Part shown: one piece after another, positions 37,306 through 63,884 of the stretch
How positions within the stretch are numbered: the first letter of the stretch is position 1
Layout: the number at the start of each line of letters is the position of its first letter
Assembly (NCBI RefSeq): GCF_003634215.1
Contig: NZ_RBWX01000007.1
Location: forward strand, 50,001-114,000
Source of the DNA: Sphingosinicella microcystinivorans
GTDB lineage: Bacteria; Pseudomonadota; Alphaproteobacteria; Sphingomonadales; Sphingomonadaceae
DNA: 64,000 nt
Direction: 5' to 3'
Position numbers and translations under genes: made by a program
The notes under the pieces: model-generated
The model's database searches: none
Told to the model about the DNA's origin: nothing
Seen by the model: the letters and a program-made list of their open reading frames with translations, nothing else

Positions 37306-37760
37306 GCGTCCGCTCCTGCCGTGCTCGCCGCCTTTATCGCGGCGCGGATGCGGGCATAGGTGCCGCAGCGGCAGATGTTGCCTGCCATTGCGGCGTCGAT
37401 GTCTGCGTCGGTGGGCTTCGGTGTTTCGGCGAGCAGCGCCGCCGCCTGCATGATCTGGCCGGACTGGCAGTAGCCGCACTGCGCGACGGCGTGCTCGCGC
37501 CAGGCGCGCTGCACGGCATGGTCGCCGCTTTCCGACAGACCCTCGATCGTCGTCACCGACTGGCCTTCCACCGCTGACATCGGAAGCTGGCACGACCGCA
37601 TCGCCGCGCCGTCCACATGCACAGTGCACGCGCCGCACAGACCTGCGCCGCAGCCGAACTTGGTGCCGGTCAATCCCGCAAGGTCGCGCACGTACCAGAG
37701 CAGCGGCATGTCGGGATCGCCGTCATACGTGTGCTTTTTGCCGTTGATAATCAATTGCAT
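37302..37760 (-). CDS. [2Fe-2S]-binding subunit (IorA type)
   Basis: 152-residue electron-transfer subunit that forms the enzyme with the molybdopterin subunit encoded directly downstream (ATGA overlap). Cysteines 37, 42, 45 and 57 form the plant-type cluster and 95, 98, 130 and 132 the second cluster (CGYCQSGQ and CRCGTY). It has no Tat signal of its own and is presumably co-exported with the large subunit. It is similar in length and motifs to the orphan at 3869-4327. The enzyme's substrate, an N-heterocycle or aldehyde, is not deducible. Confidence 0.93.
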
Positions 37761-40982: not shown

Positions 40983-41047
40983 TTTGGTCTCCCCGCGGCA
41001 CGTGATGCCGTTCCTCCACACTAGCCTAGGAAAGCAGTCTGTCGCCA

Positions 41048-41091
41048 AGCTGTCACCCACCCGGCACAGGCGAGACAGGTTTGTGACAGCT
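41048..41091. promoter_or_regulatory. Spaced inverted repeat in a divergent promoter
   Basis: AGCTGTCAC (41048-41056) and GTGACAGCT (41083-41091) are perfect inverted copies, 35 bp apart centre to centre, in the 248-bp gap between the serine hydrolase (minus) and the siderophore-type receptor (plus). The spacing of about 3.3 turns suits two dimer sites or looping better than a hairpin terminator. Confidence 0.5.
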
Positions 41092-41230
41092 AGGCGGCAT
41101 ATCGTCAGCCCGACATCGGCGTTCGCGTATCGCGGCGCGCCGGTCGAGAGACGCGGCGTGCCGGATCGTGCACGCCGGTAAATGGGGAAACTGCCGCTCT
41201 TTCGGGCGGAGATAAAAAGGGGTGCAAGGA

Positions 41231-43423
41231 ATGGCCACGAAGTGGAAATGGATCGCCGGGCTCGGTGTCAGCGGAATCGCGATGGCAGCAGCCGGTCAGG
41301 CGATGGCGCAGCAGGCCGAATCCGGAGCGCAGTCGGGCCTCGTGCTCGAGGAAATCGTCGTCACCGCCGACCGTCAGGACAGCTATAGCGCGGATTTCGT
41401 GCAGGCGGGCAGCTTCCGCGGCGCGCGCCAGATCGATACGCCGCTCACCGTCAGCGTCATTCCCGAGCAGGTGCTGAAATCGCAGCAGGCGCAGAGCATT
41501 CTCGATGCGCTGCGCAACTCGCCGGGCGTCACCAGCTCGCAGACGAGCCCCACGGTTTACAATAACCTCTCGATCCGCGGCATTCCGGTCGAGAACCGCG
41601 GCAACTACCGCCTCAACGGCTCGCTGCCGATCGTGAACCTCATCGACCTGCCGCTTGAAAACAAGGTACGCGTCGAAGCGCTGAAGGGCGCGTCGGCGCT
41701 CTATTACGGCTTCACGACGCCGTCCGGCATCATCAATCTCACCACGAAGCGTCCGACGCTCGATCCGGTGTTCTCCGTCGCGGTGAACGGCAACGATCAC
41801 GGCCAGGTGCAGGGCCACATCGACGCCGGCGGCACGTGGGGCATCCTCGGCGTGCGCGGCAACCTTGTTTACGGCACGGTCGATTCTGGCATCGACAACA
41901 CTTGGGGCCGCCGCAGCTTCCAGTCCGGCGCGTTCCAGCTGACGCCTTCGGACAATCTTCGCATCAACCTCGATGTCGAGCATATCTCGAAAGAGGTGAC
42001 GGAGCCGACCGTGCTTCAGCTCACGACGGCCACAACGGCGCTTCCGCGCCTGACGAGTGCGTCGAACAATCCCGGCAGCAAAGGTTTCATGAACAAGGCG
42101 GACGCGACCAACGTCCTCGGCCGTGTGGCGTGGAAGTTCACGCCGGCATGGGAGATCGTCGCCGAGGGCGGAATTTCATATCTGGAACGCGATCGTCGTT
42201 TCAGCTCGCTGTCAGCCTTCGACCCTGTCACCGGCAAGGGGCGCCTGACCATGGGCGCGGCGGATGGCCAGCTTTACCGGAACAAGAACGGGCGCATCGA
42301 ACTTGCCGGCACCTTTGCGACCGGTCCTGTCATTCATGAACTGCTCGTGGGCGCGTCGAAAAATATCCGCCGTCAGTATTCGCCGTTGTCGAATGCGAGC
42401 GTAGGCACGAACAATCCGACCACGCGCGCAAACTGTGTCGCACTCGGACTTGCCTCGGACTGTTTGCAGAGCGCGTATGATCCGATCGACCTCCCGGATA
42501 TCCGCTACGACGGCACGACGCCGTACAACCCCGCACGCGATACCTCGATCGAGGATACCGGCTTCTATGCCTTCGACCGGATGCGTTTCGGCGGACCCAA
42601 CGATGATCTGATCAGCGTGCTCGTCGGTGCGCGCAAGTCGATCTACAAGGAGAAGCGGAAGAACGCCGTCGGGCCGAGCACGGAAACCTTTTCCGACAAG
42701 CCGCTCGCGCTGTCGGGTGGCCTTGTGGTAAAGCCGCAAGAGTGGATCAGCGCCTATGCGACCTACATCGAAGGCCTTGAATCGACGCCGGGCGCGCCGC
42801 TGACGGCGAACAATGCGGGCGAGATTCTGCCGGCAAGCAATTCGAAGCAGTACGAAGGCGGTATCAAGGTCGAACCGAAGAAGGGCCTGCTGTTCACGGC
42901 GGCCTACTTCGATATCACGCGGCAACTGACGTATCTCAATTCCGCGAATTTCTTCGTGCAGGATGGCAGGGCCACCTATCGCGGCCTTGAACTCAGCTTG
43001 ACGGGTGAAGTTACGCCGGACCTTTCGCTTTACGGATCGGCATTGTTCCTGCGCGCCAAGCAGGGTGAAACGGCAGACACGGCGCTAATCGGCAATCGCA
43101 TCGAAAACACCGCGAAGTCGCAGTGGTCGGTGTCGGGCGAATATCGCCTCACGCAGCTTGTGGAAGGTCTCGCGATCAATGCGGGTGCCTATTACACGGG
43201 AGCGCGGGCGATCAATCCGCAGAACACGCTGTTCGTTCCGGGTTACACGCTGTTTGATCTCGGCGGATCGTATGCCTTCGAGATCGGCGGCGTGGGCATG
43301 ACCGCGCGCGTCAATGCCCAGAACATCACGGGCAAGAAGTATTTCGCCTCCACGAGCAGCAACTACATCGCCTTCGGTGCGCCGTCGGTGATCAAGTTCT
43401 CGCTCACCGCGAACATCTTCTAA
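41231..43423 (+). CDS. TonB-dependent siderophore-type receptor
   Basis: 730-residue receptor with a signal peptide (MATKWKWIAGLGVSGIAM, cleavage after about residue 26), a TonB box region (EEIVVTADRQDS), a plug typical of the siderophore class (DTPLTVSVIPEQVLKSQQA, NLSIRGIPV, ASALYYGFTTPSGIINLTTK) and a barrel ending in IKFSLTANIF. It is shorter than the other three receptors here and fits FpvA/FhuA/ferric-citrate-type transporters. Start at the ATG at 41231, with AAAAAGGGG upstream. It precedes the tricarboxylate operon and is separated from it by a hairpin. Confidence 0.93.
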   Translation: MATKWKWIAGLGVSGIAMAAAGQAMAQQAESGAQSGLVLEEIVVTADRQDSYSADFVQAGSFRGARQIDTPLTVSVIPEQVLKSQQAQSILDALRNSPGVTSSQTSPTVYNNLSIRGIPVENRGNYRLNGSLPIVNLIDLPLENKVRVEALKGASALYYGFTTPSGIINLTTKRPTLDPVFSVAVNGNDHGQVQGHIDAGGTWGILGVRGNLVYGTVDSGIDNTWGRRSFQSGAFQLTPSDNLRINLDVEHISKEVTEPTVLQLTTATTALPRLTSASNNPGSKGFMNKADATNVLGRVAWKFTPAWEIVAEGGISYLERDRRFSSLSAFDPVTGKGRLTMGAADGQLYRNKNGRIELAGTFATGPVIHELLVGASKNIRRQYSPLSNASVGTNNPTTRANCVALGLASDCLQSAYDPIDLPDIRYDGTTPYNPARDTSIEDTGFYAFDRMRFGGPNDDLISVLVGARKSIYKEKRKNAVGPSTETFSDKPLALSGGLVVKPQEWISAYATYIEGLESTPGAPLTANNAGEILPASNSKQYEGGIKVEPKKGLLFTAAYFDITRQLTYLNSANFFVQDGRATYRGLELSLTGEVTPDLSLYGSALFLRAKQGETADTALIGNRIENTAKSQWSVSGEYRLTQLVEGLAINAGAYYTGARAINPQNTLFVPGYTLFDLGGSYAFEIGGVGMTARVNAQNITGKKYFASTSSNYIAFGAPSVIKFSLTANIF

Positions 43424-43440
43424 GCGGGTATTGACCGTTG

Positions 43441-43473
43441 CCGACCGGCGTCAACATGCGTGACGCCGGTCGG
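43441..43473. terminator. Strong hairpin before the dehydrogenase operon
   Basis: A 13-bp stem (CCGACCGGCGTCA with TGACGCCGGTCGG) around a 7-base loop, 17 bases after the receptor stop and 23 bases before the ATG of the next gene. No U-run follows, so it may terminate the receptor transcript, act as an RNA-stability element, or be an attenuator in the leader of the operon. Confidence 0.55.
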
Positions 43474-43496
43474 TGCCGATTGCAACGGACGCTTAC

Positions 43497-44564
43497 ATGA
43501 ATCTCCTTCTGCTTCCCGGCGACGGCATCGGCCCCGAAATCTCCGCTGCCACGCGCCGGGTGCTGGAGGTGCTCGCGGAGACATGCGGCGCGCCGATCAC
43601 GATCGAGGAAAGCGCCATCGGCTTCGCCAGCCTCGCCGCATCCGGCACGACACTCCCCGATGCGGTTCTGGAGCGGATTCCGCAGGTGGACGGCGTCATC
43701 CTCGGCCCCGTCTCGCATTTCGATTATCCCCCGCGCGCGGAGGGCGGTATCAATCCTTCGGCAGCGCTGCGCACACAGTTCGCGCTCTACGCCAACATCC
43801 GGCCTTGCCGTTCGCGGCCGGACCTCAGCATTCTTCGGAAACCGATGGATCTCGTGATCGTGCGCGAGAACACCGAAGGCTTCTATTCCGATCGCAACAT
43901 GCACGTGGGAAGCGGCGAGTTCATGCCCGACGAGGATATGGCGCTCTCCATCCGCAAGATCACCGCGAAAGGCGCTTCCCGGGTCGCACGCGCCGCATTC
44001 GCGCTGGCGCGCACGCGCCGGAAGAAGGTGACAGCCGTGCACAAGGCCAACGTGCTGAAACTGTCGGATGGGCTGTTCCTGCGCGAGGTACGCAAGGTCG
44101 CCGCCGAATTCCCCGACGTGGAGCTGGAGGAAATCATCGTCGATGCCGCTGCCGCGCTGCTCATCCGCAGCCCGGACCGGTTCGATGTGATCGTCACCAC
44201 CAACATGTTCGGGGATATTCTTTCAGACGAAGCCTCCGAACTGTGCGGCAGCCTTGGTCTCGGCGGATCGATCAACGCCGGCGACGACATCTGCGTTGCG
44301 CAGGCGCAGCACGGCTCCGCGCCTGATATCGCGGGCAAGGACATCGCCAATCCGACCTCGCTGATCCTTTCGGCGGCGATGCTGCTGGATTGGTTCGGCC
44401 GGAAGCACAGGCGGGACGATCTCGTCGCTGCCGCCGCGCGGCTCGAAGCGGCGGTCGAAGATGTGCTGAACACCCCGGCCACGCGCACGCGCGACATCGG
44501 CGGCACACTCGGCACCGCCGCATTCGGCGAGGCGGTGTGCAGTGCGGTTCGGGCGCAGCGATGA
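43497..44564 (+). CDS. Isocitrate/isopropylmalate dehydrogenase family enzyme (NAD-type)
   Basis: 355-residue beta-decarboxylating dehydrogenase acting on a 2R-hydroxyacid with a carboxyl group, giving a 2-oxoacid and CO2. Conserved substrate residues are Arg92, Arg102, Arg123, Tyr130, Lys183, Asp240 and Asp244. The RENTEGFYSDRNMHVG loop around residue 123-138 differs from IPMDH and from the classic IDH3 form and resembles the tartrate/homoisocitrate group. HGSAPDIAGKDIANP has an Asp that favours NAD. The actual substrate is unknown; the aconitase in the same operon suggests a tricarboxylate. The ATG at 43497 is chosen; the upstream GTG lies in the hairpin. Confidence 0.85.
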   Translation: MNLLLLPGDGIGPEISAATRRVLEVLAETCGAPITIEESAIGFASLAASGTTLPDAVLERIPQVDGVILGPVSHFDYPPRAEGGINPSAALRTQFALYANIRPCRSRPDLSILRKPMDLVIVRENTEGFYSDRNMHVGSGEFMPDEDMALSIRKITAKGASRVARAAFALARTRRKKVTAVHKANVLKLSDGLFLREVRKVAAEFPDVELEEIIVDAAAALLIRSPDRFDVIVTTNMFGDILSDEASELCGSLGLGGSINAGDDICVAQAQHGSAPDIAGKDIANPTSLILSAAMLLDWFGRKHRRDDLVAAAARLEAAVEDVLNTPATRTRDIGGTLGTAAFGEAVCSAVRAQR

Positions 44565-44962
44565 GCGCCGTCCTGCTGCGGCCTGAAATGCTCTCCGTGA
44601 AGGATCGCGGCGGCGGCATCCGCACGCGGCCCATGGTGACGGCGAAGGTGGGGTCGCGGCAGATGCTGAACGGCGTCACCGTCATCGATCCCGGCTGCGC
44701 GGTGCCGCTTCATTTCCACAATTGCGAGGAAAGCGTGCTCGTGCTTTCGGGCGCGGGACGCGCGCATATCGATGGCGAGGAGCATGATGTGCGTCCGCGT
44801 GACCTGACGTGGATTCCCGCCGGCGTTCCGCATTTCTTTCGGAACGTGTCGGAAAGCGTGCCGCTCGAAATCTTCTGGACCTACGCCTCGCTCGACGCGA
44901 CGCGGACAGTTGTTGCCACGGGCGTTGTCATCCGTATCGACGAGGAGCACGGCGAACGATGA
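44561..44962 (+). CDS. Cupin-fold protein
   Basis: 133-residue single-domain cupin. Both cupin motifs are visible: His51, His53 and Glu57 (HFHNCEE) and the C-terminal His91 in PAGVPHFFRN, so a metal site is probable. No catalytic role can be assigned; members act as isomerases, dioxygenases or ligand sensors. It overlaps both neighbours by 4 bases (ATGA), so translation is coupled with the dehydrogenase and the methyltransferase. Confidence 0.88.
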   Translation: MSAVLLRPEMLSVKDRGGGIRTRPMVTAKVGSRQMLNGVTVIDPGCAVPLHFHNCEESVLVLSGAGRAHIDGEEHDVRPRDLTWIPAGVPHFFRNVSESVPLEIFWTYASLDATRTVVATGVVIRIDEEHGER

Positions 44963-45750
44963 CCGCCGAAAACCAACGTGTCGGTCGGCACATTTTCGGT
45001 TCGGATGCCGCAGGCTACGCCAGCGCGCGCCCGCAGTATCCGGAATCGCTGTATGTCGCGCTCGCAGCCGAAGCGCTTACCCCCGGCGCGGATGTTTTCG
45101 AGATCGGGCCGGGAACCGGGCAGGCGAGCCGGCGGCTGATCGCAGCGGATATCGCTTCCCTCACGCTCATCGAACCCGATCCCGTGCTTGCCGCGCGGCT
45201 CGCGGATCTTGGAAACAACGTTCGCGTCGTGAACGCGCCGCTGGAAGAGGCCGGGCTGCCGCAAAGCGCATTCGATCTGGGTGTTGCGGCGACCTCGTTC
45301 CACTGGGTCGATTCCGCACGCGGGCTTCCGATGGTGCGTGATCTTCTGCGCCCCGGCGGCGTCTGGGCAATGTGGTGGAATGTGCTTCACGATCCCGAAC
45401 AGGATCTGTTCAGCCGGGCGGTATTGCCGCTTCTGAAAGATGCGGAGCTGCCGCCATCGCTGCGCGGGCCGGAACAGCGGCATTATTCGCTGTGGACCGA
45501 TGATCGGCTTGCCGAACTCAGCGCAGCCGGGTTTGCGCACGTGGAGCACCAGATGCACGAACTGACCGTGCGGATGACCGCAGCCGAGATGCGCGCGCTG
45601 TATGCGACCTTCTCGATGATTCGCCGCATGGCGCCGGAATTGCGCGCGCGTATGCTCGCCGGGATCGAGGCTGTCGGCGAACAGGGCTTCGGCGGGGTGA
45701 TCGAGCGCCGCTTTCGCGTTCCGCTGTTTATCGCGCGCAAGGCGCGGTAG
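44959..45750 (+). CDS. Class I SAM-dependent methyltransferase
   Basis: 263 residues. Motif I is VFEIGPGTGQASRRL (about residue 39), followed by IEPDPVLAARLADLG and the CATSFHWVD-like VAATSFHWVDSARG segment near residue 105, placing it among small-molecule methyltransferases of the type 11/25 group. It could methylate a carboxylate such as trans-aconitate, but it does not show the trans-aconitate methyltransferase pattern strongly enough for me to name it. Coupled to the cupin (ATGA) and 2 bases before the aconitase. Confidence 0.85.
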   Translation: MTAENQRVGRHIFGSDAAGYASARPQYPESLYVALAAEALTPGADVFEIGPGTGQASRRLIAADIASLTLIEPDPVLAARLADLGNNVRVVNAPLEEAGLPQSAFDLGVAATSFHWVDSARGLPMVRDLLRPGGVWAMWWNVLHDPEQDLFSRAVLPLLKDAELPPSLRGPEQRHYSLWTDDRLAELSAAGFAHVEHQMHELTVRMTAAEMRALYATFSMIRRMAPELRARMLAGIEAVGEQGFGGVIERRFRVPLFIARKAR

Positions 45751-45752
45751 GC

Positions 45753-48260
45753 GTGTCACCGTCGATGATGGTGAATCTCCCCGGCACGCTCGGGGCGCGG
45801 CTGGCGCACATGCCGTGGGTCCATCGAATCCTCGCCGAGAATCTGCTCCGTCGTAGCGCGGTGGACGCCGATGCCGACCATGCGGCGCAGGAGTGGCTGG
45901 AACGCGGCAACCGGACGATCGAATTGCCGTTCGTGCCCGCGCGTCTCCTGATGCACGACACGACCTGCGGCCCCGCGCTTGTCGATCTTGCCGCGATGCG
46001 TTCGGTGGTCGCTGCCGAGGGCGGGGACCCACGCCGGATCTTGCCGGGCTTGCGCGTCGACGTTTCCACCGATCACAGCATCGCCGTGGACAGCTATGGT
46101 GCGCGCGGTGCGCTCGAAGCCAATCTCGCCGCCGAGATGGCGCGCAATGCCGAGCGTTTCGGGCTGATGAAATGGGCGGGGAATGCTTTCCCTTCGCTGC
46201 ATGTGCATCCGCCGGGCACCGGCATCATGCACACGATCAACCTCGAACGCCTCGCCACCGTGGTGAGCCGCGAGACATGGCAGGGGCGGGACTGGCTGTT
46301 CCCCGATACGCTGATCGGCACGGACAGTCACACGCCGATGATAAACGGCATCGGCGTGCTCGGCTGGGGCGTCGGCGGGCTTGAAGCCGAAAGCGTGATG
46401 CTCGGAATGCCGGTGACGCTGCGCGTGCCCGAGGTTGTCGGCGTGCGCCTCACGGGGCGGCTCCGGCCCGGTGTCACGGCGACGGATCTTGCGCTCACGA
46501 TCACGCAGATGCTGCGCGGCGTGCGGATCGACGGGCGGTTCGTCGAATTCTTCGGGGCGGGCGTTTCGACGCTTTCCGCAGGGACACGCGCCGTCGTTGC
46601 GAACATGGCGCCCGAGTTCGGCGGCGCGACGGGTTATTTCCCGCCCGATGAGGCCGTGATCGCCTATCTGCGCGCGACTGGCCGCGCGTCCGATCACATC
46701 CGGCAGGTGGGGGACTATCTCCGGCGCCAGAAGCTTTGGTTCGATCCGGACGCCGCGCCCGATTACGATCTCGGTCTGCATCTCGATCTGGGCAGCGTCG
46801 TGCCGAGCCTCGCCGGTCCGCACCGCCCGCAGGACCGGATTGCGCGCGCGGAAACATCTGCGTCCGCGGAAAGGCGGCCTGTCGCGCTCGCGGCAATCAC
46901 CAGCTGCACGAACACGTCCGATCCGCGTCTCCTAGTGACCGCCGGTCTTGTCGCGCGCGCGGCGCTGGCACGCGGTCTTTCCGTACCGCGCTGGGTGAAG
47001 ACCAGCCTTGCACCCGGCTCCCCCACGGCCGCGGCGCTTCTTGAACGCGCCGGGCTGCGCGAGGCGCTCGAAGCGCTCGGCTTCGCGATTGTCGCCTACG
47101 GCTGCACAACCTGCATCGGCAACAGCGGGCCGCTTTCGCCCGAGATGGACGCGCTGATCGCCGAAGGCGCGCATCCCATCGCGGTGCTTTCGGGCAATCG
47201 CAACTTTCCCGGCCGCGTTCATCAGGCGGTCCGCGATTCGTATCTCGCCGCGCCGCCGCTCGTCATCGCTTATGCGCTTGCGGGTGATTTCAGCATCGCG
47301 ATCGAAACCGATCCGCTTGGCACCGGTTCAGACGGCACACACGTCTTCCTGCGCGACATCTGGCCCGCCGAACACGAGATCGATAGGGCGCTCGCTGCCG
47401 CCGCGAATCCTGCCGATTTCGAAGCCGCTTATGCGGCTGCGGAAGCGAACGCCGACTGGGCGGCGCTCCCGGCATCAGATGGGCCGCTCTTCCCGTGGGA
47501 TCAGGCTTCGACGTATCTGCGGCCTCCGCCCTTCGTCGCGCTTGGCGCGCAGTCGCGCCTGGGCCGTTACGCAGCGTATCCGCTGCTTGTTCTCTGCGAC
47601 GACATCACGACCGATCATATCTCGCCCGCCGGTGCGATTCCCGCGCAGGGCGACGCAGGCCGCTGGCTCATCGAGCGCGGCGAGCGGGCGGACGATCTCA
47701 ACGTCTTCTCGGCGCGCCGCGGCAATTGGGAGGTGATGCTGCGTGGTCTCTTCACGAACCCGTCCGTGCGCAACCACATCGGCCGGGACATTCCGCCGGG
47801 ATCGACGATCCATGTGCCGAGCGGCGAGGTTCTGCCGCTCTGGGAAGCCGCGGCGCGCTATGCCGCCGAAGGGCAGGCCGTGGTCGTCGTCGCGGGGGAT
47901 CGCTATGGCATGGGTTCGTCGCGCGACTGGGCGGCGAAGGGCCAGTACCTGCTCGGCGTACGGGCGGTGCTCGCCGCGGGGTTCGAGCGCATCCACCGCT
48001 CCAACCTCTGCAACATGGGCATCCTTCCACTCGAACTTCCCGCCGCGCTCTCGCTTGCGAGCGGTGACCGCATCGAGATCGATATGCCGGAACATGCGCT
48101 CGCGCCGTCCGCGCCATGCGCCGTGCGCGTGCTGCGGGCGAACGGCGACGCCCAGGCCCTCACAGCGCGCGCGGCAGTGGAGACGCAGGCCGAGGTGCGC
48201 GTGCTGAAGGCCGGCGGCCTGTTGCCGCTGATGCTTCGCGCATCATTGACAGCTTCGTGA
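45753..48260 (+). CDS. Aconitase A-type hydratase
   Basis: 835-residue [4Fe-4S] dehydratase of the AcnA/IRP family; canonical reaction citrate to isocitrate through cis-aconitate. Cluster ligands are Cys385 (SCTN), Cys451 and Cys454 (GCTTCIGNSG). Active-site motifs are DHSIAVDSYG, GTDSHTPMINGIG, DDITTDHISPAG and GSSRDWAAKG. It is shorter than typical AcnA (about 890 residues). Being in a catabolic operon, it is probably not the housekeeping enzyme; homologues of similar make-up act on 2-methylcitrate, but the usual partner genes prpB, prpC and prpF are absent. GTG at 45753, or ATG at 45765/45768. Confidence 0.9.
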   Translation: MSPSMMVNLPGTLGARLAHMPWVHRILAENLLRRSAVDADADHAAQEWLERGNRTIELPFVPARLLMHDTTCGPALVDLAAMRSVVAAEGGDPRRILPGLRVDVSTDHSIAVDSYGARGALEANLAAEMARNAERFGLMKWAGNAFPSLHVHPPGTGIMHTINLERLATVVSRETWQGRDWLFPDTLIGTDSHTPMINGIGVLGWGVGGLEAESVMLGMPVTLRVPEVVGVRLTGRLRPGVTATDLALTITQMLRGVRIDGRFVEFFGAGVSTLSAGTRAVVANMAPEFGGATGYFPPDEAVIAYLRATGRASDHIRQVGDYLRRQKLWFDPDAAPDYDLGLHLDLGSVVPSLAGPHRPQDRIARAETSASAERRPVALAAITSCTNTSDPRLLVTAGLVARAALARGLSVPRWVKTSLAPGSPTAAALLERAGLREALEALGFAIVAYGCTTCIGNSGPLSPEMDALIAEGAHPIAVLSGNRNFPGRVHQAVRDSYLAAPPLVIAYALAGDFSIAIETDPLGTGSDGTHVFLRDIWPAEHEIDRALAAAANPADFEAAYAAAEANADWAALPASDGPLFPWDQASTYLRPPPFVALGAQSRLGRYAAYPLLVLCDDITTDHISPAGAIPAQGDAGRWLIERGERADDLNVFSARRGNWEVMLRGLFTNPSVRNHIGRDIPPGSTIHVPSGEVLPLWEAAARYAAEGQAVVVVAGDRYGMGSSRDWAAKGQYLLGVRAVLAAGFERIHRSNLCNMGILPLELPAALSLASGDRIEIDMPEHALAPSAPCAVRVLRANGDAQALTARAAVETQAEVRVLKAGGLLPLMLRASLTAS

Positions 48261-48337
48261 AAGACAAAGGCGGCTAGGATGATGCAAATACTGGGACTGC
48301 CCACACGTCGGCAGGCACTGAGGGGGACCGCCGGCTG

Positions 48338-49651
48338 ATGCTATCCATTCTCGCCTTTGGCATGGTCGCCACGTTCATGACTCTGATCATGACGAAGCGC
48401 ATGTCGGCGATGATCGCGCTCATCATCGTGCCGACCGCGTTCGCGCTGATTGCGGGATTCTCGGCGGGGCTCGGCGAGATGATGCTCGCGGGGATCCGGG
48501 ATATCGCGCCGACGGGCGTGATGCTGCTGTTCGCGATCCTCTATTTCGGCATCATGATCGACGCGGGGCTTTTCGATCCGCTGACGCGCAAGGTGGTGGA
48601 ACTCGCGCACGGCGATCCCTTGCGGATCACGATGGGGTCGGCGATCCTTGGTCTCGTGGTCGCGCTCGATGGGGACGGCACGACCACTTACATGATCACG
48701 CTCTCGGCGCTGCTGCCGCTTTACAAGCACATGAAGATGGATGTGCGGGTGCTTACCTGCATTCTGATCATGGCGGTCGCCGCGATGAATCTCGTGCCCT
48801 GGGGCGGGCCGACTTCGCGGGCGGCGATCGCGCTTGGTGTCGATCCGCGCGCGCTGTTCCTGTCGCTGATTCCGCCCGTGCTCACCACGGTCTGCTGGGT
48901 GCTGTTCACCGCGTGGATGCTTGGCCGCGCAGAGCGGAAGCGGCTCGGCGTCACCGAGCGCGTGGCGATGCCGGCGCCCGGTCAGCTCGATCTTTCGACG
49001 CCGGACAGCGACGGAACGCCGTCCACGCGGCGCCCGCGCCTTTACTGGTTCAACGCCGCGCTTACCGCCGCGCTCATGGGCGTCCTGCTGTTCGGTGATG
49101 TGCCGCTGCAGGTGCTCTTCATGGTCGCGTTCGCGATTGCCGCTATGGTCAACTATCCGCAGGTGGAGATGCAGCGCGAGCGCGTCGCCGCGCACGCCTC
49201 GAACGCGCTTGCGACCGCAGGTCTTGTTTTCGCGGCCGGTATTTTCACCGGGGTACTTTCGGGTACGAAGATGGTCGATGCCATGGCGAATACGGTGACG
49301 GGTTTCATTCCCGACGCACTTGGGCCTTACATGGCGCCGATCACCGCGCTCGTCAGCATTCCGTTCACGGTGCTGATCTCCAACGACGCTTTCTATTTCG
49401 GGATGCTGCCCGTGCTCGCACAATCGGCGGGGCATTATGGCATCACCGCGATGGAGGTCGCGCGCGCGTCCCTCGTCGGGCAGCAGATTCACCTGCTCAG
49501 TCCGCTTGTCGCTTCGACCTATCTCCTCGTTGCGACCGCAGGCGTCGAGCTTGGCGACCACCAGCGCTTCACGATGAAATGGGCGCTCGGCGCGTGCGCG
49601 GTGTTCATGGTCACCTGCCTGCTGCTCGGCCTTTTCCCGTGGTACGCCTGA
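48338..49651 (+). CDS. CitMHS family citrate-metal:proton symporter
   Basis: 437-residue membrane protein, family CitMHS, which imports citrate complexed with Mg2+ or another divalent metal. Diagnostic residues are LDGDGTTTYMI near residue 108-118 and NLVPWGGPTSRA near 150. About 12 membrane helices. Located 77 bases after the aconitase with a GAGGGGG Shine-Dalgarno, it probably belongs to the same transcript. The gene fits uptake of citrate or a related tricarboxylate. Confidence 0.9.
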   Translation: MLSILAFGMVATFMTLIMTKRMSAMIALIIVPTAFALIAGFSAGLGEMMLAGIRDIAPTGVMLLFAILYFGIMIDAGLFDPLTRKVVELAHGDPLRITMGSAILGLVVALDGDGTTTYMITLSALLPLYKHMKMDVRVLTCILIMAVAAMNLVPWGGPTSRAAIALGVDPRALFLSLIPPVLTTVCWVLFTAWMLGRAERKRLGVTERVAMPAPGQLDLSTPDSDGTPSTRRPRLYWFNAALTAALMGVLLFGDVPLQVLFMVAFAIAAMVNYPQVEMQRERVAAHASNALATAGLVFAAGIFTGVLSGTKMVDAMANTVTGFIPDALGPYMAPITALVSIPFTVLISNDAFYFGMLPVLAQSAGHYGITAMEVARASLVGQQIHLLSPLVASTYLLVATAGVELGDHQRFTMKWALGACAVFMVTCLLLGLFPWYA

Positions 49652-49655
49652 ATTT

Positions 49656-50765
49656 CTATTCCCCGTCGAGCGCGGCTTGCCAGTTGGCGAGAAAACGCTG
49701 ACGACGAATACGATCGAGGTTCGCGAGCAGCGCGGGTCCGAGCTTCACCGGCCGCGCGGCCACAGCGGGCGGCTTGCTGCCGGCGAGGGGCACGACATCT
49801 TCGCGCGATGGCGCCATGTAGGCGCGCGCCAGATGGCGCTGACCTTCGGCGGAGAGCAGGAAATCGAGCAGGAGTTTCGCGGCATTGGGCTGCCGCGCCT
49901 CACGCGCGATGAGCGCGATGCGCGAGACGACGAGCGTATAGTCGCTCGGCATGATCACGCCGATGTCGGGATTGCGCGTGGCGTGTTCCAGCGCATACGA
50001 ACCGAGCGCATTGTATGCGAACAGGCTGCGCCCGGTTTCAAGGTCGGCAAGCAGCGGCCCGCTCGACGTATGCAGCCGCACGCCCGCAGCGCCGAGTGCG
50101 CCGACAAGCGACATGATATCCCGGCTCGCGTGGTAATCCTGCGTCAGCTGCAAATAGCCGAAACCGGACAGGCGCGGGTCGTAAGTGGAGACCCGGCCCT
50201 GATAGAATGCAGCCTTGTTTCGCAGCAGGCGCTCGAAGCTCGAATGCGTGCGCGGCACGTCCTTCACAGGCACGAGACGCTTGTTATAGGCGATCACCAC
50301 GGGTTCGGCGGTCACGCCCCAGGCCTCGTTCTTCCAGATCGCCCAATTCGGCAAATAGGGCTTTTCCGGCGAAGCATAGGCCTGCGCATAGCCATCGTTC
50401 ACAAGCTTGATCTGAAGATCCATTGCAGAACTCCAGATCAGATCACCCGTGGGCTTCCGTGCGCGTGATTCCGCGATCACACGATTGTAAAGCTTCGGCG
50501 ATTCCAATTCGCGGTAATCGACACGCAGGAACGGATAGCGCTTCCGAAACGCATTCAGCGCAGCCGTCACCTCGTGACGATCTGTGGTGGAATATACGAC
50601 GACAACGCCTTCACGCCGCGCGGCCGCGATCGTATCGGCATAGGAGCGGGGATAGCCTCTCGGTTGCCCCGCTGCTATCAACGCGAATGCGGCAGGCAGA
50701 AGCAATAGAGCGCGCCGCTGGGAAACGAAGCACAGAATTTTGCGAAGCGGCCCGGTCACGCGCAT
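49656..50765 (-). CDS. Periplasmic solute-binding protein (ABC type, iron/thiamine-like)
   Basis: 369-residue periplasmic binding protein with a long signal peptide (LLLLPAAFALIAAG core). It starts with TIAAARREGVVVVYSTTDRH, typical of the AfuA/FbpA-like ferric and polyamine-binding family. No ABC permease or ATPase gene is adjacent. Its nearest neighbour is the divergent TctD gene 49 bp away, so it may present a ligand to the sensor kinase or act with a distant transporter. ATG at 50765 is preferred; upstream ATGs exist, with no good Shine-Dalgarno sequence at any. Confidence 0.8.
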   Translation of the reverse strand: MRVTGPLRKILCFVSQRRALLLLPAAFALIAAGQPRGYPRSYADTIAAARREGVVVVYSTTDRHEVTAALNAFRKRYPFLRVDYRELESPKLYNRVIAESRARKPTGDLIWSSAMDLQIKLVNDGYAQAYASPEKPYLPNWAIWKNEAWGVTAEPVVIAYNKRLVPVKDVPRTHSSFERLLRNKAAFYQGRVSTYDPRLSGFGYLQLTQDYHASRDIMSLVGALGAAGVRLHTSSGPLLADLETGRSLFAYNALGSYALEHATRNPDIGVIMPSDYTLVVSRIALIAREARQPNAAKLLLDFLLSAEGQRHLARAYMAPSREDVVPLAGSKPPAVAARPVKLGPALLANLDRIRRQRFLANWQAALDGE

Positions 50766-50813
50766 AGTGCGCGCAATGTGCGGGCCCATCGCCATTCTGT
50801 CAAAGAGGGAAGC

Positions 50814-51497
50814 ATGGCGCGGATATTGCTGGTGGAGGACGACGTAGCGCTCGCACGCGGTCTGACGGCTGCGCTACGCGGGGAGGGCTATTCGGTCGAC
50901 CCTGCGCCGGACGGCGAAACCGCGCTCGAAATGGCGCGCGACGAGCCTTACGCCGTCATCACGCTCGACGTGAACCTTCCCGACATGAGCGGCTTCGATG
51001 TGCTGAAGTCGCTGCGATCGAACGGTTGCCGCGCCCCGATCCTGATGCTGACCGCGCGCGATTCGCTTGAGGACCGGGTGAAGGGCCTCGATCTCGGTGC
51101 TGACGACTATCTGCTTAAACCGTTCGAGCCTGCCGAACTCGCGGCGCGGTTGCGGGCGCTGCTGCGCCGTCCCGCCGCGGACCCCTCGCCGCTCATCCGC
51201 GTTGGAAATCTTGAGATCGATCGGTCGCGGTGCGTCATTTGGGTCTCGGGCGAACAGATCGATCTGCGCCGCCGCGAATGGGTGCTGCTGGAACGACTCG
51301 TCGTGCGCGTCGGCAAGGTGGTCTCGAAGGATCGGCTTGCCGCCGAGGTGTTCGGATTCGACGAGGCGGTCGCGCCGAACGCGATCGAGGTTTACATTGC
51401 CCGCCTGCGCCGCAAGCTTGGCCCGCAGGGCCCGGCGATCCGCACGATGCGCGGCCTTGGCTATGTGATGGAGAACACGCCTGCCGCTGAGACGTAA
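50814..51497 (+). CDS. tctD: OmpR-type response regulator, TctD-like
   Basis: 227-residue response regulator. The receiver domain has the acidic pocket (VEDD, residues 7-10), phosphoacceptor Asp52 and the conserved Lys in YLLKPFE. The output domain (about 130-220) is a winged helix with VLLERLVVRVGKVVSKDRL and VYIARLRRKLG. Sequence and neighbour match the tricarboxylate regulator TctD. The Shine-Dalgarno AAGAGGGA supports the ATG at 50814. It overlaps the sensor gene. Confidence 0.92.
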   Translation: MARILLVEDDVALARGLTAALRGEGYSVDPAPDGETALEMARDEPYAVITLDVNLPDMSGFDVLKSLRSNGCRAPILMLTARDSLEDRVKGLDLGADDYLLKPFEPAELAARLRALLRRPAADPSPLIRVGNLEIDRSRCVIWVSGEQIDLRRREWVLLERLVVRVGKVVSKDRLAAEVFGFDEAVAPNAIEVYIARLRRKLGPQGPAIRTMRGLGYVMENTPAAET

Positions 51498-52887
51498 TCT
51501 TCGCGTTTCGCTGACCGCGCGGCTTCTCGTCGCGCTGATCGGGCCGACGGCGGCGCTGGCGCTGGTGCTCGGCGTTGGCGGTGCGCTCATCATCGGGCGC
51601 ATCGTCGAAAGCGTGAATGACCGCCTGCTCGATGCTTCGGCGCGCTCGATCGCGGACACGCTTGCACTGGAGGATGGCGAAGTCACGCTCGACCTGCCTC
51701 CCTCCGCGTTCGGGATGCTGGAAAACGACGAGCGCGACAATGTCTACTACAGTGTGCGCGTCGGTGGAGAACTGCTTACCGGCTACCCCGATCTTCCTCA
51801 GATCAAGGCCGGTTCGGCGCGGACGGACGATGTCGCCTTCGCTTATTCGGCGTACCGCGATGCCCCCGTCCGTGTGGCGGCAATCGTGCGGCGGGTGCCG
51901 CGCGTTGAGGCGCCCGTCGTCGTGCAGGTCGCGGAAACGCTCGAAGCGAGGAACAGCCTGTCCTCGCGTATGCTGGCCGGCCTCCTCGTGCTCGAAGCGC
52001 TGATTGTCGGCCTGCTCGTGCTGCTCGTGCCGGTTGCGGTGCGCTGGGGCCTCGTGCCGCTCGCAGAGGTGCGCAGGGGTATCGCCAGCCGCTCACCGAC
52101 CGATTTTACGCCGCTGACGCTGCAGCAGGTGCCGGCTGAACTGCGCAGTTTCGTCGATGCCTTCAATGGCCTTCTGCTTCGCCTGGAAAACGCCGTCGAG
52201 GGCCTGCGCCGCTTCACGGCGGATGCTTCGCACCAGATGCGGACGCCGCTTTCGATCCTGCGTGCACATCTGCAGGTGTTGAAGCGCGAAGGCACGGAAA
52301 CCGAGGGCGGACGCGCCTCACTTGCGGATATCGACACCGCGACTGTACGCTTGCAACGGCTGCTGACGCAGTTGCTCGCGCTCGCCCGCGCCGAGGGCAA
52401 CCGCGAAAACGTCATGCGGCTCGCGCGCAATGTGGATCTCGCCGCGCTTGCCCGGTCGGTCGCGGAGGATCACGTTCCGGCCGCGCTCGAAGCGGGTGTC
52501 GAGATCGAATTCGACGCGGAGGGGAGCGCGGCGGTGCGTACCGTCGGCGAATTCGCGCGCGAACTCATCTCGAACCTTGTCGATAACGCGATCCGCTACA
52601 ACCGGCGCGGCGGCACCGTATGGCTCTGGGTCACGGCCGAGGCGGTGGGTGTGCGTGTTGTGGTGGAAGACGACGGGCCGGGCATTCCGCCCAGGATGCG
52701 CGCGCAGATGTTTCAGCGCTTCCGGCGGCTGGACCGCGACCACAGTGAAGGCAGCGGGCTTGGCCTTGCCATCGTCAGCGAGCTTGCAACCGCGCTCGGC
52801 GGTGGCATTGCGGTCACCGATCGGCCGGGCGGCGGCCTGCGCGTCCTGATCGACTTTCCGCGAGACTTGGGGGCAGGTGGCGCGTAA
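51481..52887 (+). CDS. tctE: TctE-like sensor histidine kinase, probable CTG start
   Basis: About 468 residues. The N-terminal sensor region (MLENDERDNVYYSVR, TGYPDLPQ) is the 2CSK_N domain of TctE, flanked by helices at about residues 15-38 and 165-185. Then come a HAMP-like region, His251 in SHQMRTPLSILRAHL, the N box (SNLVDNAIRY), and G boxes (DDGPGIPP, GSGLGLAIV). No ATG, GTG or TTG precedes the first membrane helix in this frame; a CTG at 51481 sits 7 bases after GGAGA and gives a complete N-terminus. The GTG at 51565 would delete half of the helix. Confidence 0.88.
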   Translation: MPLRRNLRVSLTARLLVALIGPTAALALVLGVGGALIIGRIVESVNDRLLDASARSIADTLALEDGEVTLDLPPSAFGMLENDERDNVYYSVRVGGELLTGYPDLPQIKAGSARTDDVAFAYSAYRDAPVRVAAIVRRVPRVEAPVVVQVAETLEARNSLSSRMLAGLLVLEALIVGLLVLLVPVAVRWGLVPLAEVRRGIASRSPTDFTPLTLQQVPAELRSFVDAFNGLLLRLENAVEGLRRFTADASHQMRTPLSILRAHLQVLKREGTETEGGRASLADIDTATVRLQRLLTQLLALARAEGNRENVMRLARNVDLAALARSVAEDHVPAALEAGVEIEFDAEGSAAVRTVGEFARELISNLVDNAIRYNRRGGTVWLWVTAEAVGVRVVVEDDGPGIPPRMRAQMFQRFRRLDRDHSEGSGLGLAIVSELATALGGGIAVTDRPGGGLRVLIDFPRDLGAGGA

Positions 52888-52951
52888 TGCGACAGGCCGT
52901 TGAAAGCTGCGCGGTCCTAGCTTGGCGTCCGCCGGAGAGATGTGGAGGGAA

Positions 52952-54382
52952 ATGCACGTGTTCCGTTTGACCTCGGTTGCCATTGTTGCCGTTTGCGCTG
53001 TGTTCGGTCCGGCTGCCCTCGCTGCGCCAAAATCCGATCCGGCACGCGCCGGCGAGGCTGATTTTCGGGCCGTTTACCGTGAACTCGTGGAGACGGACAC
53101 CTCGCTTTCGAGCGGCAGTTGCACGCTCGCCGCGGAGCGTATGGCGGCACGGCTGTTGGCAGCAGGCTATGCGAAGAGCGAGGTGCAGGTCGTCGTGCCA
53201 CCGGATTTCCCCCGGCAGGGCAATCTCGTCGCGCGGATCAACGGCAGCGATGCGAAGCTCGCGCCGATGTTGCTGCTTGCGCACATCGATGTTGTCGAGG
53301 CGAAGCGGACCGACTGGAAGCGGGACCCGTTCAAGCTCGTTGAAGAGAACGGCTATTTCTATGCGCGCGGCGCTGTCGACGACAAAGCCATGGCATCGTC
53401 GTTCGTGGATGCTTTCGTCCGCTACAAGAAAGAGGGCTACCGGCCGAAACGAACGATCAAGCTCGCTCTGACCTGCGGCGAGGAAACGGACAGCGTGTTC
53501 AACGGCGTCCGTTATCTGCTGAAGACGATGCCCGATGCATTCGCTGCGGAATTCGCGGTGAACGAGGGTGGTTCGGGAAATCTGGACGAGAACGGCAAGC
53601 GGATTTCTTTCGGTGTGCAGGTCGGTGAGAAAATCTATCAGGATTTCACCTTCACCGTCACGGCGCCCGGTGGCCACAGCGCAAGACCGACGGATGACAA
53701 TGCAATCGGACGCCTTGCCGCGGCTGTTACCCGGATCGATCGCTACCGGTTTCCTGTCAACATGACGGATGCCACCAAAGGGTTCTTCCGGCGCTCGTCG
53801 GCGCTTTACGAAGGACAGATTGCGCAGGATCTGGCGGCAGCCGGCAATGGCACGGCCGATGATGCCGCTTTCGCCCGCATCGGCGCGGCGGATCCGCTCT
53901 GGAACGCGTTCCTCCGCACAACCTGCATTCCCACACAGCTCGCCGGCGGTCATGCGCCCAATGCGCAGCCGCAACATGCGCAGGCGAATGTGAATTGCAG
54001 GGTCATGCCTGGCGAAACCCTCGATGCTGTGCTGGCGCGTCTTCAAGATGTCGTGGCCGATCCGAAAGTCGAGATTCGCCTTGCCGCGGAGCCGGGGCCG
54101 CAGTCTGCCGCGCCGCCGCTTGATGCGCGGATCATGAAACCCGTCGAAGCGATCGCGGCGGACATGTGGCCCGGTGTTCCTGTCATCCCGCATTTGAGCA
54201 GCGGCGCGACCGACGGTCGTTTCCTGAATGCTGCGGGGATTCCGACCTACGGTATTTCGGGCGTGTTCAGGGAGCCGGACGGCAACGGTGTGCACGGTCT
54301 CGACGAACGTATCCGCGTCACGTCGCTGATGGATGCGCGGGCTTTCCTCTACCGCCTCGTGAAGGCCTATTCGGCACACTGA
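52952..54382 (+). CDS. Exported M20 family peptidase/amidohydrolase
   Basis: 476-residue zinc aminoacylase/carboxypeptidase-type enzyme with a signal peptide (MHVFRLTSVAIVAVCAVF, then ALA), so periplasmic. The zinc ligands are His111 (LLAHIDVVEA), the Asp in ARGAVDDKAMA, and Glu-Glu in CGEETDS; further ligands lie in the dimerisation-flanked C-terminal domain (GGHSARPTDDNA and the final VHGLDERIRV). It would release amino acids or acids from amide-linked compounds. GGAGGGA upstream supports the ATG. It directly precedes the PepSY gene. Confidence 0.9.
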   Translation: MHVFRLTSVAIVAVCAVFGPAALAAPKSDPARAGEADFRAVYRELVETDTSLSSGSCTLAAERMAARLLAAGYAKSEVQVVVPPDFPRQGNLVARINGSDAKLAPMLLLAHIDVVEAKRTDWKRDPFKLVEENGYFYARGAVDDKAMASSFVDAFVRYKKEGYRPKRTIKLALTCGEETDSVFNGVRYLLKTMPDAFAAEFAVNEGGSGNLDENGKRISFGVQVGEKIYQDFTFTVTAPGGHSARPTDDNAIGRLAAAVTRIDRYRFPVNMTDATKGFFRRSSALYEGQIAQDLAAAGNGTADDAAFARIGAADPLWNAFLRTTCIPTQLAGGHAPNAQPQHAQANVNCRVMPGETLDAVLARLQDVVADPKVEIRLAAEPGPQSAAPPLDARIMKPVEAIAADMWPGVPVIPHLSSGATDGRFLNAAGIPTYGISGVFREPDGNGVHGLDERIRVTSLMDARAFLYRLVKAYSAH

Positions 54383-54383
54383 C

Positions 54384-55499
54384 ATGAAGCCTTCGACGCG
54401 CACGACACTGCTCAAGCTTCATCGCTGGGTCGGCCTCGCCTTCGCGGTGTTGCTGCTTGTGCAGGGTCTGTCCGGCACGCTTCTGGTGTTCCGTGAAGAG
54501 ATCGAAGGCATCATTCACCCGGCGCTCGTGGTGGCCCCGTCGGAGACGCGGGCCTCCATGCAGGGGATTGTCGACACGGTTCGCGAATCCGCGCCGCAAG
54601 CCCAGCTGCAGCGCATCAAGTTCGCCGACGATCCCACGCGCGCGGCCATGGCTTCCCTAAAACTGGAAAACGATACGCCATGGATTGTCGCGATTGATCC
54701 TTATACAGGCGAGATCGTGCGCGCGGGCAGCTACGGGGCGTGGCCTGCCGAGTGGCTGTTTCACCTCCACGACACACTGCTCGCGGGGAAGACGGGCGAA
54801 ATCATCGTCACCATCGAAGGCGTTGCGCTCATCTTCCTTGCCGTGTTCGGCATCATCATCTGGTGGCCGGGGCGTCGTCGGCTGAAATCCGGCTTTCGTA
54901 TTCTCACGGGACAGGGAGCGGACCGCACTGTCCGCACTGCGCATCGTGCGATCGGTGCAGCGGTCGGCATCGTGCTGGTGATGTCGGGGGTCACGGGCGC
55001 GCTGCTCATCCATCGCGCAGCGTTGCAACCCTATCTTCCCGTTGTGCCGCGACCGAAGTTCGACGTTGCACTGTCGCAAGCTCCTCTACGTCCGGTCGAC
55101 ACGCTGATCGCCGATGCGCGCGTTCGCCATGGGCAACAGCCACTGCGCGAGGTCCGCTTTTCGGGGGCAGCCGGTCAGGTCGTCGCGCTTTATTTTCAGG
55201 ATGAAGCATCGCGCCGTCCAAATGCGACACGCCAGTATTTCTACAACGCTTACGAAGGCGTCGAACTCGGTCGCTACGAGCCTGCCGCGCTGCCGCCGAT
55301 GAACACCGCCTATGACTGGCTGTTCACGATCCACACCGGCAAGGCGGGCGGACTGGTTGGCCGTCTTGTCGTGCTCGCGGCCGGTATCGCGCTTGTGTTC
55401 TTCGCGGGCAGCGGCGTGTGGCTTTGGCTCTCCGCGCGCAGGCAGAAACGTGCTCGGCGTGCGCAGGCAGACGACCGCCTCGTCCGAAATGCGGCTTAG
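54384..55499 (+). CDS. PepSY-associated membrane protein (iron-uptake type)
   Basis: 371-residue inner-membrane protein with four helices (about 12-35, 140-162, 190-210 and 330-355) and periplasmic PepSY-like domains. The N-terminal LKLHRWVGLAFAVLLLVQGLS and C-terminal TIHTGKAGGLVGRL are characteristic. Such proteins are usually linked to siderophore receptors and thought to reduce ferric chelates in the periplasm. It begins 1 base after the M20 peptidase stop, strongly suggesting a joint transcript, and overlaps the SGNH gene. Confidence 0.9.
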   Translation: MKPSTRTTLLKLHRWVGLAFAVLLLVQGLSGTLLVFREEIEGIIHPALVVAPSETRASMQGIVDTVRESAPQAQLQRIKFADDPTRAAMASLKLENDTPWIVAIDPYTGEIVRAGSYGAWPAEWLFHLHDTLLAGKTGEIIVTIEGVALIFLAVFGIIIWWPGRRRLKSGFRILTGQGADRTVRTAHRAIGAAVGIVLVMSGVTGALLIHRAALQPYLPVVPRPKFDVALSQAPLRPVDTLIADARVRHGQQPLREVRFSGAAGQVVALYFQDEASRRPNATRQYFYNAYEGVELGRYEPAALPPMNTAYDWLFTIHTGKAGGLVGRLVVLAAGIALVFFAGSGVWLWLSARRQKRARRAQADDRLVRNAA

Positions 55500-56244
55500 C
55501 GCCTGCACCATCGCCATCTCGGCGATCCTTGCCGCATCCGCCCATGCGGACCCCAATCCCGTCGCTTCGATGACCGTGCAGGATTTCGCCGCGAAATGGA
55601 TGATGCAGCAGGGCGATATCGCGGGCACCGGCGTCTATGCCTCCGCTAACGCGGCGCTTCGGGCATCGCCCGTTGCGGAGCCGCGCATCGTACTGATGGG
55701 CGATTCGATCACCTATCACTGGACGCCCGCGCTACTGCCCCGGCTCGGCAGCGCGGCCTGGGTCAATCGCGGTATCCCGGGGCAGAACAGCAGCCAGATG
55801 CTGCTGCGCTTCGAAGGTGATGTCGTCGCACTCTCGCCAGCCGTCGTCGTGATCCTCGCGGGCACAAACGACCTCAGGGTCTATGCTGGAAGCCATGCCG
55901 ATGCGTCGCCCGCCATCCTCGCGCGGCTCCGCAGCAACGTGACGGCAATGTCGGATATCGCCGATGCGCGCGAGATCCGTGTCGTGCTCAGCGCCATTCC
56001 ACCGTTTGATGCGCCCCGCGATGGCGACCGGCGCGACCCGGAAACGTGGCGCGCAGCGAACGCGTGGCTGCGCACATTCGCAAAGGCGCGACGTTATGCA
56101 TTCGCTGACTACAGCGGATTGGCAAACGCCGAAGGCCGCCTGCGCGCCGACCTCAGCGAAGACGGGCTACACCCAAACCCGGATGGATACATGCTGATGC
56201 GATCGGTTCTCGCAGATGCAGTGAAGGCTATGGGCGTTCGATAA
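55489..56244 (+). CDS. SGNH/GDSL-type esterase, exported
   Basis: 251-residue hydrolase with a signal peptide (MRLSACTIAISAILAASAHA). SGNH blocks are present: LMGDSITYHW (nucleophile Ser), RGIPGQN (Gly), LAGTNDLR (Asn) and DGLHPNPDGY (Asp-x-x-His). It would deacylate a carbohydrate or another ester. The start overlaps the PepSY stop by 11 bases. A terminator follows 5 bases after the stop. Confidence 0.9.
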   Translation: MRLSACTIAISAILAASAHADPNPVASMTVQDFAAKWMMQQGDIAGTGVYASANAALRASPVAEPRIVLMGDSITYHWTPALLPRLGSAAWVNRGIPGQNSSQMLLRFEGDVVALSPAVVVILAGTNDLRVYAGSHADASPAILARLRSNVTAMSDIADAREIRVVLSAIPPFDAPRDGDRRDPETWRAANAWLRTFAKARRYAFADYSGLANAEGRLRADLSEDGLHPNPDGYMLMRSVLADAVKAMGVR

Positions 56245-59060: not shown

Positions 59061-59153
59061 GACAGTCCCCTTTTGACCTGCTTCGAAATGTGGCGTTCGT
59101 CTACTCACGCGAACGTTATTTCGACCGTGGAAAGTTCACCAAAACTTTCGGCC

Positions 59154-59202
59154 TGTCCACATCAATATCCTAAATGGGACGTAATTTTCCCTATGGGTTG
59201 CT
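59154..59202 (-). promoter_or_regulatory. Conserved 49-nt upstream element, copy A
   Basis: About 40 of 49 bases match the element at 62311-62360. The identical parts include ATATCCT, GGACG and CTATGGGTTGCT (as read on the plus strand). It lies 94-142 bases before the receptor start. It probably contains the promoter and a regulator-binding site. Confidence 0.6.
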
Positions 59203-59446: not shown

Positions 59447-59470
59447 CTTGTTCCCGACCCGGGAGGGAAA

Positions 59471-63840: not shown

Positions 63841-63884
63841 CACCCCGACTCTCCCTTCCCAATGTTATGTTCCAGAATTTTGAC

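Follow-up and report, generated by a model that had tools for sequence, protein, structure and literature searches.

Within the window, the 64,000-nucleotide (64-kb) stretch of contig NZ_RBWX01000007.1 of Sphingosinicella microcystinivorans analysed here, we found a 15-kb gene cluster, best delimited as 41039–56244, that looks like a putative apparatus for sensing, importing and breaking down a citrate-like acid, probably one other than plain citrate. Judged from its sequence, the cluster would be a conserved, commonly regulated locus for tricarboxylate uptake and catabolism and a new version of TctDE-type systems, the new part being the apparent joining of TctDE-type uptake to a catabolic module with two enzyme subfamilies to which no reaction has been assigned. 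The genes named in an earlier note on this DNA were confirmed at their positions by a Pfam scan, with NCBIfam in agreement: Plug and barrel domains of a receptor, Iso_dh, Aconitase with Aconitase_C, CitMHS, a bacterial solute-binding protein on the minus strand, Response_reg/Trans_reg_C, a 2CSK_N histidine kinase, an M20 peptidase and PepSY_TM. Three genes that the note had overlooked, encoding a cupin, a class I methyltransferase and a GDSL hydrolase, lie in the same cluster.

All 12 genes were found in identical order in two genomes of the same genus (G262 and G778) and in a genome of another family (G076), the latter at 36–77% protein identity and with its GDSL gene cut by the end of the stretch. 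Two further genomes of the genus carried 9 of the 12 genes in a fetched stretch that stops at the kinase (G779) and 10 of the 12 with the GDSL gene outside the stretch (G776). The dehydrogenase gene was present in five of six genus genomes, the remaining one being 78% complete. The gene order shared across the genus and with a genome of another family shows the cluster to be a genuine, if uncommon, unit; the dehydrogenase subfamily also occurs in other settings. The earlier note had treated the region as a single locus, and the shared order of the 12 genes in G262, G076 and G778 speaks against a chance mosaic. As a separate observation, a block encoding ChrB, a chromate transporter and a superoxide dismutase sits between the binding-protein and CitMHS genes of the otherwise conserved cluster in G776 (L152:5537-8633).

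The two central enzymes are both surplus to the usual complement of the genome. Three aconitase-superfamily genes and three Iso_dh genes were found in it, the window's included, so that the window aconitase and dehydrogenase are additional copies beside two further genes of each kind. An AcnA-type gene on contig 2 clustered with AcnA of other genomes in a tree; the remaining paralogues were read as LeuC, LeuB and Icd by position, length and motif rather than by a named model. The accessory aconitase (45753–48260, plus strand) fell in a separate clade with a support of 100/100, apart from AcnA and AcnD, in a tree that kept 24 of 43 rows after removal of duplicates, all longer than 700 amino acids. 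Its clade included plasmid genes of A. pusense, N. galegae, A. tumefaciens and Paracoccus and a gene of G039.

We then aligned 11 accessory aconitases (five of them from one genus), 2 of a second accessory group (G746 and Pantoea), 20 AcnD and 11 AcnA. Residue 68 of the window protein was His in all 11 accessory, both second accessory and all 20 AcnD sequences, and the same position in AcnA was Gln in 10 of 11 and Asn in one. We take this position to be the substrate-contacting Gln72 of mitochondrial aconitase. The LeuC of the genome also has His in the corresponding motif, as judged by eye. The three iron-sulfur cysteines and the examined Asp, His, Asn, Ser and three Arg positions were unchanged in all four groups. 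Among subfamily models, the window protein passed PRK12881 (1131 vs 905 needed) and PRK09277 (1002 vs 686), fell short of TIGR01341 (920 vs 945), and scored 701 bits against the AcnD model TIGR02333, which requires 1419.85, in keeping with its place outside the AcnD clade. A supposed loss of the equivalent of Arg580 of mitochondrial aconitase was dropped, since the site had been mis-assigned and the region around residue 642 varies in AcnA too.

The accessory aconitase and the dehydrogenase also meet outside the cluster. An A. pusense plasmid carries both enzyme kinds within 12 kb, together with an ATP-binding cassette (ABC) importer whose binding protein is of the same family as that of the window. 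Aconitases of the second accessory group are encoded ahead of the dehydrogenase gene in G746 and, in Pantoea agglomerans, at a distance of a few genes; the joining of these two in the tree was flagged by the program as a possible long-branch artefact. In G039, genes for a PepSY protein, the dehydrogenase, a semialdehyde dehydrogenase and a cupin are adjacent, and their contig also holds a 62% aconitase relative some 35 kb off. The neighbours of that aconitase (L231:7664-16776) encode a BD-FAE alpha/beta hydrolase, a beta-propeller lactonase, a tannase/feruloyl esterase and an ornithine-cyclodeaminase-family protein, hinting at plant ester substrates.

The dehydrogenase (43497–44564, plus strand) carries an N-x-S signature in place of the S-x-N pair that contacts the gamma-carboxylate in isocitrate dehydrogenase. 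This signature was found in 68 of 74 rows at an identity of at least 48%, whereas rows below 48% had S-x-N in 53 of 85 cases and N-x-S in one of 85; these rows include duplicates, the same gene being present in several loci. By its motif we presume the window enzyme to be of the type that uses nicotinamide adenine dinucleotide. It scored below the cut-off for each of 17 listed NCBIfam models of the isocitrate, homoisocitrate, isopropylmalate and tartrate types. In Nostoc sp. 210A (L032:9-11065), a 56% relative directly follows a nonribosomal peptide synthetase gene and a class V aminotransferase gene, as if recruited to natural-product synthesis, and in G431 and G731 (L148 and L149, near 9600-11100) tandem dehydrogenase matches were seen, the aligned one having Gln at the Tyr130 position.

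Between the two enzymes lie the cupin gene (44561–44962, plus strand; Cupin_2 match) and the methyltransferase gene (44959–45750, plus strand; Pfam Methyltransf_11, start read from sequence and translation). The methyltransferase is a remote relative of HvrF (E-value 1.5e-6); its better match is 4hg2, named 'Methyltransferase type 11'. The pantaphos paper (PMC7858074), in its available part, describes HvrF as highly homologous to trans-aconitate methyltransferase. The cupin accompanies the dehydrogenase in G076, G039, Duganella, A. pusense and Roseomonas, and in these same five a semialdehyde dehydrogenase accompanies the cupin. In G076 this is an extra gene of the succinate-semialdehyde-dehydrogenase type inserted between dehydrogenase and cupin, with PRK09406 as its best model (548 bits vs a cut-off of 730). 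Among the 12 best dehydrogenase loci of a scan of named genomes, Duganella had aldehyde dehydrogenase, cupin and dehydrogenase genes together, one metagenome-assembled genome had a cupin gene plus a 35% aldehyde dehydrogenase further away, and none of the 12 had a match to the accessory aconitase.

An alignment of the regions upstream of the receptor gene revealed conserved repeats, and the repeat was then scanned as GACAG-N6-GACAG. Exact copies occurred twice in the 64-kb window, both upstream of the receptor gene (41039–41054 on the minus and 41074–41089 on the plus strand), where 0.17 were expected and none of 100 shuffles reached two. The facing pair was found before the receptor in all five genus loci examined, the window included. 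In the 4.0-Mb G076 genome, three of four exact copies fall inside the cluster, ahead of three transcription units: one precedes the receptor gene, another precedes CitMHS, and the third separates the binding-protein and regulator genes. The gap between the kinase and M20 genes of G076 holds a one-mismatch copy, as it does in the window. Exact copies genome-wide and in the cluster numbered 5 and 2 in G000, 4 and 2 in G262 and 7 and 2 in G778, counts for which the control was uninformative as the pattern reads the same backwards. One-mismatch copies in the window lie before CitMHS (48248–48263, plus strand), in the gap between kinase and M20 genes (52891–52906, plus strand) and inside the PepSY gene (54910); they are weak alone because nine places in the window have at most one mismatch, the two exact copies included.

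Support for the repeat also came from other loci of the order. In all 13 related CitMHS loci that have the regulator, a repeat with at most one mismatch lies no more than 160 bases upstream of the regulator gene, compared with 47 of 2600 random stretches of 170 bases from the same loci. Regulators of the OmpR type usually have sites with an 11-base period, which GACAG-N6-GACAG shares. On these sequence grounds we regard the repeat as a candidate operator, very likely the one used by this regulator family, which supports TctDE-type control. The characteristic arrangement is complete in the window by Pfam: a 2CSK_N sensor kinase, TctE-like (51565–52887, plus strand), an OmpR-type regulator (50778–51497, plus strand; likely start 50814 by eye) and a divergent binding-protein gene. 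The regulator scored 205.3 bits with PmrA and 202.5 bits with TctD, below the curated cut-offs of 330 and 337, and its putative TctD label rests on architecture. An identical repeat was found outside the cluster in three genus genomes (G000:C1:1617191, G262:C12:137964 and G778:C1:3383653); it is possibly a further regulon member or a coincidence in coding sequence.

The import module points to the ligand class. The CitMHS protein (48338–49651, plus strand), of the citrate:proton symporter family, scored 564.9 bits with TIGR00784 against a cut-off of 259.7. The periplasmic binding protein (49656–50795, minus strand) has its closest solved relatives in 3c9h and the 7f6e series, with full-length homology and an E-value of 3e-64 to 7f6e. 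We take the 7f6e series to be the Thermus metal-citrate-binding protein MctA, for which a search of one open library found no matching paper; the structure itself is annotated as an iron-binding ABC protein. The window protein has T, S and S at the S/T positions changed in three mutant chains among the seven listed of the 7f6e series, and these positions presumably contact the ligand. No permease genes of its own adjoin the binding-protein gene, and neither TctA nor TctB was found among the cluster genes in Pfam and follow-up domain scans; the binding protein more likely serves the sensor kinase or passes its ligand to CitMHS.

Of 18 other CitMHS loci in the order, 13 carry the regulator, kinase, binding protein and CitMHS at 35–59% identity, which marks these as a common module to which the window adds the receptor, hydrolases, PepSY protein and catabolic enzymes. 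No match to the accessory aconitase was found at any of the 18; a 36% dehydrogenase (L203), a 37% methyltransferase (L186) and a 25% receptor (L199) were each seen at one locus. In the one locus of the simple module that was scanned, the gene between binding protein and CitMHS encodes Porin_O_P. Relatives of the dehydrogenase adjoin tripartite tricarboxylate transporters in Roseomonas, Thalassospira (with tcuAB), Cupriavidus and Shinella, and in A. pusense and Rhizobium sp. NXC24 they adjoin an ABC importer whose binding protein is 38–39% like that of the window.

The remaining genes encode the receptor, the two hydrolases and the PepSY protein. The TonB-dependent receptor (41231–43423, plus strand) passed the TonB-siderophor model (262 bits vs a cut-off of 223.5) and has FemA as its nearest solved relative. 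The M20 amidohydrolase (52922–54382, plus strand) belongs to the PRK09133 subfamily (636.6 bits vs a cut-off of 349), and the GDSL hydrolase (55489–56244, plus strand) has a likely start that overlaps the PepSY stop; both have starts that resemble signal peptides by eye. The inner-membrane protein between them (54384–55499, plus strand) is of the PepSY_TM family and weakly matches 7abw (41.8 bits), a structure linked with FoxB in the available part of PMC13001220. That source also describes Caulobacter hiuABC, in which a receptor and a FoxB-like PepSY protein form a known iron pair.

Taken together, we consider it on balance probable that the cluster is a TctD/TctE-type regulon for the uptake and catabolism of a citrate-like tricarboxylate, one that would be substituted or conjugated rather than free citrate. 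The receptor would admit a form that is bulky or carries metal to the periplasm, where the GDSL and M20 hydrolases would free the acid and the PepSY protein may reduce bound metal; the substrate complex may contain iron or another metal. The TctE-like kinase would receive the acid, by itself or complexed with metal, from the binding protein, and CitMHS would import the acid together with a divalent metal. Once in the cytoplasm, the acid would meet the accessory aconitase, which would shift a hydroxyl; the dehydrogenase would decarboxylate the isocitrate-like product, and the methyltransferase would cap trans-aconitate-like by-products; in relatives, the succinate-semialdehyde-type dehydrogenase and the cupin would complete the route. 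A citrate analogue or conjugate is a more likely substrate than citrate because the aconitase and dehydrogenase are extra paralogues with altered conserved residues. More tentatively, and with a confidence somewhat short of even, we propose that the substrate is an undescribed citrate analogue, such as a 2-substituted or hydroxylated citrate, alloisocitrate or a conjugate, processed by the two enzyme subfamilies without assigned reaction.

Several results weigh against the proposed tricarboxylate regulon. Outside the genus, the full cluster was seen in a single other family, and the cupin was not detected in the G776 cluster. At an E-value of 1e-60 the dehydrogenase occurred in 10 of 396 genomes of the order, 4 of these at an identity of at least 74%, and the sole further cluster gene detected around the other six, at 45–47%, was a 28% aconitase-superfamily match. 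At 1e-100 it occurred in 26 of 385 genomes of the class; at 25 of the 26 listed class loci, all outside the window genome and with the G769 locus left out, an adjoining aconitase, a cupin and a 33–36% aldehyde dehydrogenase were each seen once. Several loci with 55–74% relatives showed no aconitase, the plasmid gene tables being incomplete, and the neighbours of the subfamily vary between loci in a survey that excluded four genus loci and the six 45–47% loci. The semialdehyde dehydrogenase seen in relatives is lacking in the genus of the window, the best match in the window genome being 36%. The junction of binding protein and regulator in the window has only a two-mismatch repeat, the putative roles of receptor and PepSY protein, like the involvement of iron, are drawn from homology, and CitMHS and the binding protein suit citrate as well as an analogue. 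The co-occurrence in other genomes that the earlier note had suggested checking is conserved in the genus and a genome of another family but rare in the order.

The best surviving alternative, though an unlikely one, is use of plain citrate, or of ferric or Mg citrate, with the extra aconitase and dehydrogenase as inducible isoenzymes carrying flux on citrate. The CitMHS family, the 7f6e-type binding protein and the TctDE-type regulators would all fit, as would the kept iron-sulfur cysteines and the other unchanged positions examined in the accessory aconitase and its passing of two AcnA subfamily cut-offs; P. aeruginosa TctDE responds to citric acid according to the available part of PMC6403454. 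However, the 13 of 18 CitMHS modules without a match to the accessory aconitase or dehydrogenase suggest that citrate import can occur without these enzymes, and the conserved changes in both enzymes also speak against it.

Less probable still is a hydroxylated substrate of the sugar-acid type, a di- or tricarboxylate resembling tartrate, pentarate or hydroxycitrate, from which the dehydrogenase would yield a hydroxy-oxo acid. Dehydrogenase relatives of 55–59% identity share loci with OtnK and partly with OtnC or TpiA, which suggests hydroxylated acids at those loci and counts against a citrate-like substrate; lactonases and amidohydrolases are also among their neighbours. OtnK, OtnC and TpiA were not found in the window cluster, however, and the fetched G076 cluster has no unassigned large open reading frame. 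The dehydrogenase stays below the cut-off of the tartrate model TTC (224, with 470 needed), and the aconitase, methyltransferase and CitMHS indicate a citrate-like carbon frame.

That the locus chiefly acquires iron or another metal, the acid being merely a carrier, is improbable, even with the siderophore-type receptor, the PepSY_TM protein and the hiuABC precedent (PMC13001220, as far as available) in its favour. With the one consensus tried, on the plus strand, no Fur site was found before the receptor, the best match of 9/19 being reached at hundreds of places in the window, and a TGA-N9-TCA search for ferric control found nothing; moreover, the candidate operator is common to the carbon genes and carbon enzymes are part of the cluster. 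Chance proximity of unrelated genes, for which one could cite the many other contexts of the dehydrogenase subfamily, is contradicted by the cross-family gene order and the shared operator candidate and is hardly credible. Accordingly, the earlier interpretation stands in part. Its tricarboxylate class, TctDE-type control and outer-membrane-to-cytoplasm logic agree with the gene set and the repeat, whereas capture of a metal or iron chelate was not demonstrated by a PepSY protein weakly related to 7abw, a receptor nearest FemA and a Fur match of 9/19. The enzymes for oxidation through aconitase and dehydrogenase are present, but as extra copies with altered residues that make plain citrate oxidation less likely.

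Compared with known systems, the citrate-analogue regulon proposed here resembles Salmonella tct and P. aeruginosa tctDE-opdH-tctCBA in that an OmpR-type regulator and a sensor kinase adjoin a binding-protein gene. The P. aeruginosa TctD regulon is small and has a site before the regulator, as here (PMC4513871, available part). Unlike these systems, the window cluster has no TctA/TctB permease and would import by CitMHS, has a TonB receptor in the place of OpdH or a porin, and includes catabolic enzymes. The simple CitMHS module of the order has a homologous regulator, kinase, binding protein and CitMHS and the same repeat before the regulator, but 12 of 13 such modules had no receptor match in the fetched stretches, and none of the 13 matched the accessory aconitase, dehydrogenase, cupin, methyltransferase, M20 or PepSY proteins there. 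The AcnD-PrpF route for 2-methylcitrate likewise has a separate AcnA-type clade with His for the Gln of AcnA, yet the window aconitase has its own clade and no PrpF match was found among the cluster genes. Trans-aconitate assimilation by TarRAB (PMC11495376, as far as available) shares tricarboxylate use, a regulator and an importer, but its PrpF-type isomerase and major facilitator superfamily importer were absent among the window cluster genes. The hiuABC/FoxB ferri-siderophore reduction system (PMC13001220, available part) shares a receptor and a PepSY inner-membrane protein; the window cluster differs in having carbon genes and no Fur-like site by the consensus tried, a HiuC-like gene not having been searched for.

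In one open literature library, we found no paper on alloisocitrate with a dehydrogenase, nothing apt on bacterial hydroxycitrate catabolism among the matches listed, and only unrelated literature on the combination of 3-oxo-tetronate kinase, aconitase, isopropylmalate dehydrogenase and semialdehyde dehydrogenase. Titles and abstract starts among the matches listed there named no locus combining CitMHS, a TonB-dependent receptor, citrate and PepSY. If the proposal is true, the cluster would take a tricarboxylate of plant or microbial origin from the outer membrane into central metabolism. The two enzyme subfamilies now carry the generic labels 'aconitate hydratase AcnA' and 'isocitrate/isopropylmalate dehydrogenase family', and a small set of assays could reveal their substrate. 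The candidate operator offers a ready reporter for an inducer search.

Two features of the window flank the cluster. Upstream, at 35020–37638 on the minus strand, lies a gene for a molybdopterin-binding protein of the xanthine-dehydrogenase type, and after the cluster, at 56331–63843 on the minus strand, two more TonB-dependent receptors and a beta-lactamase-fold gene were found.

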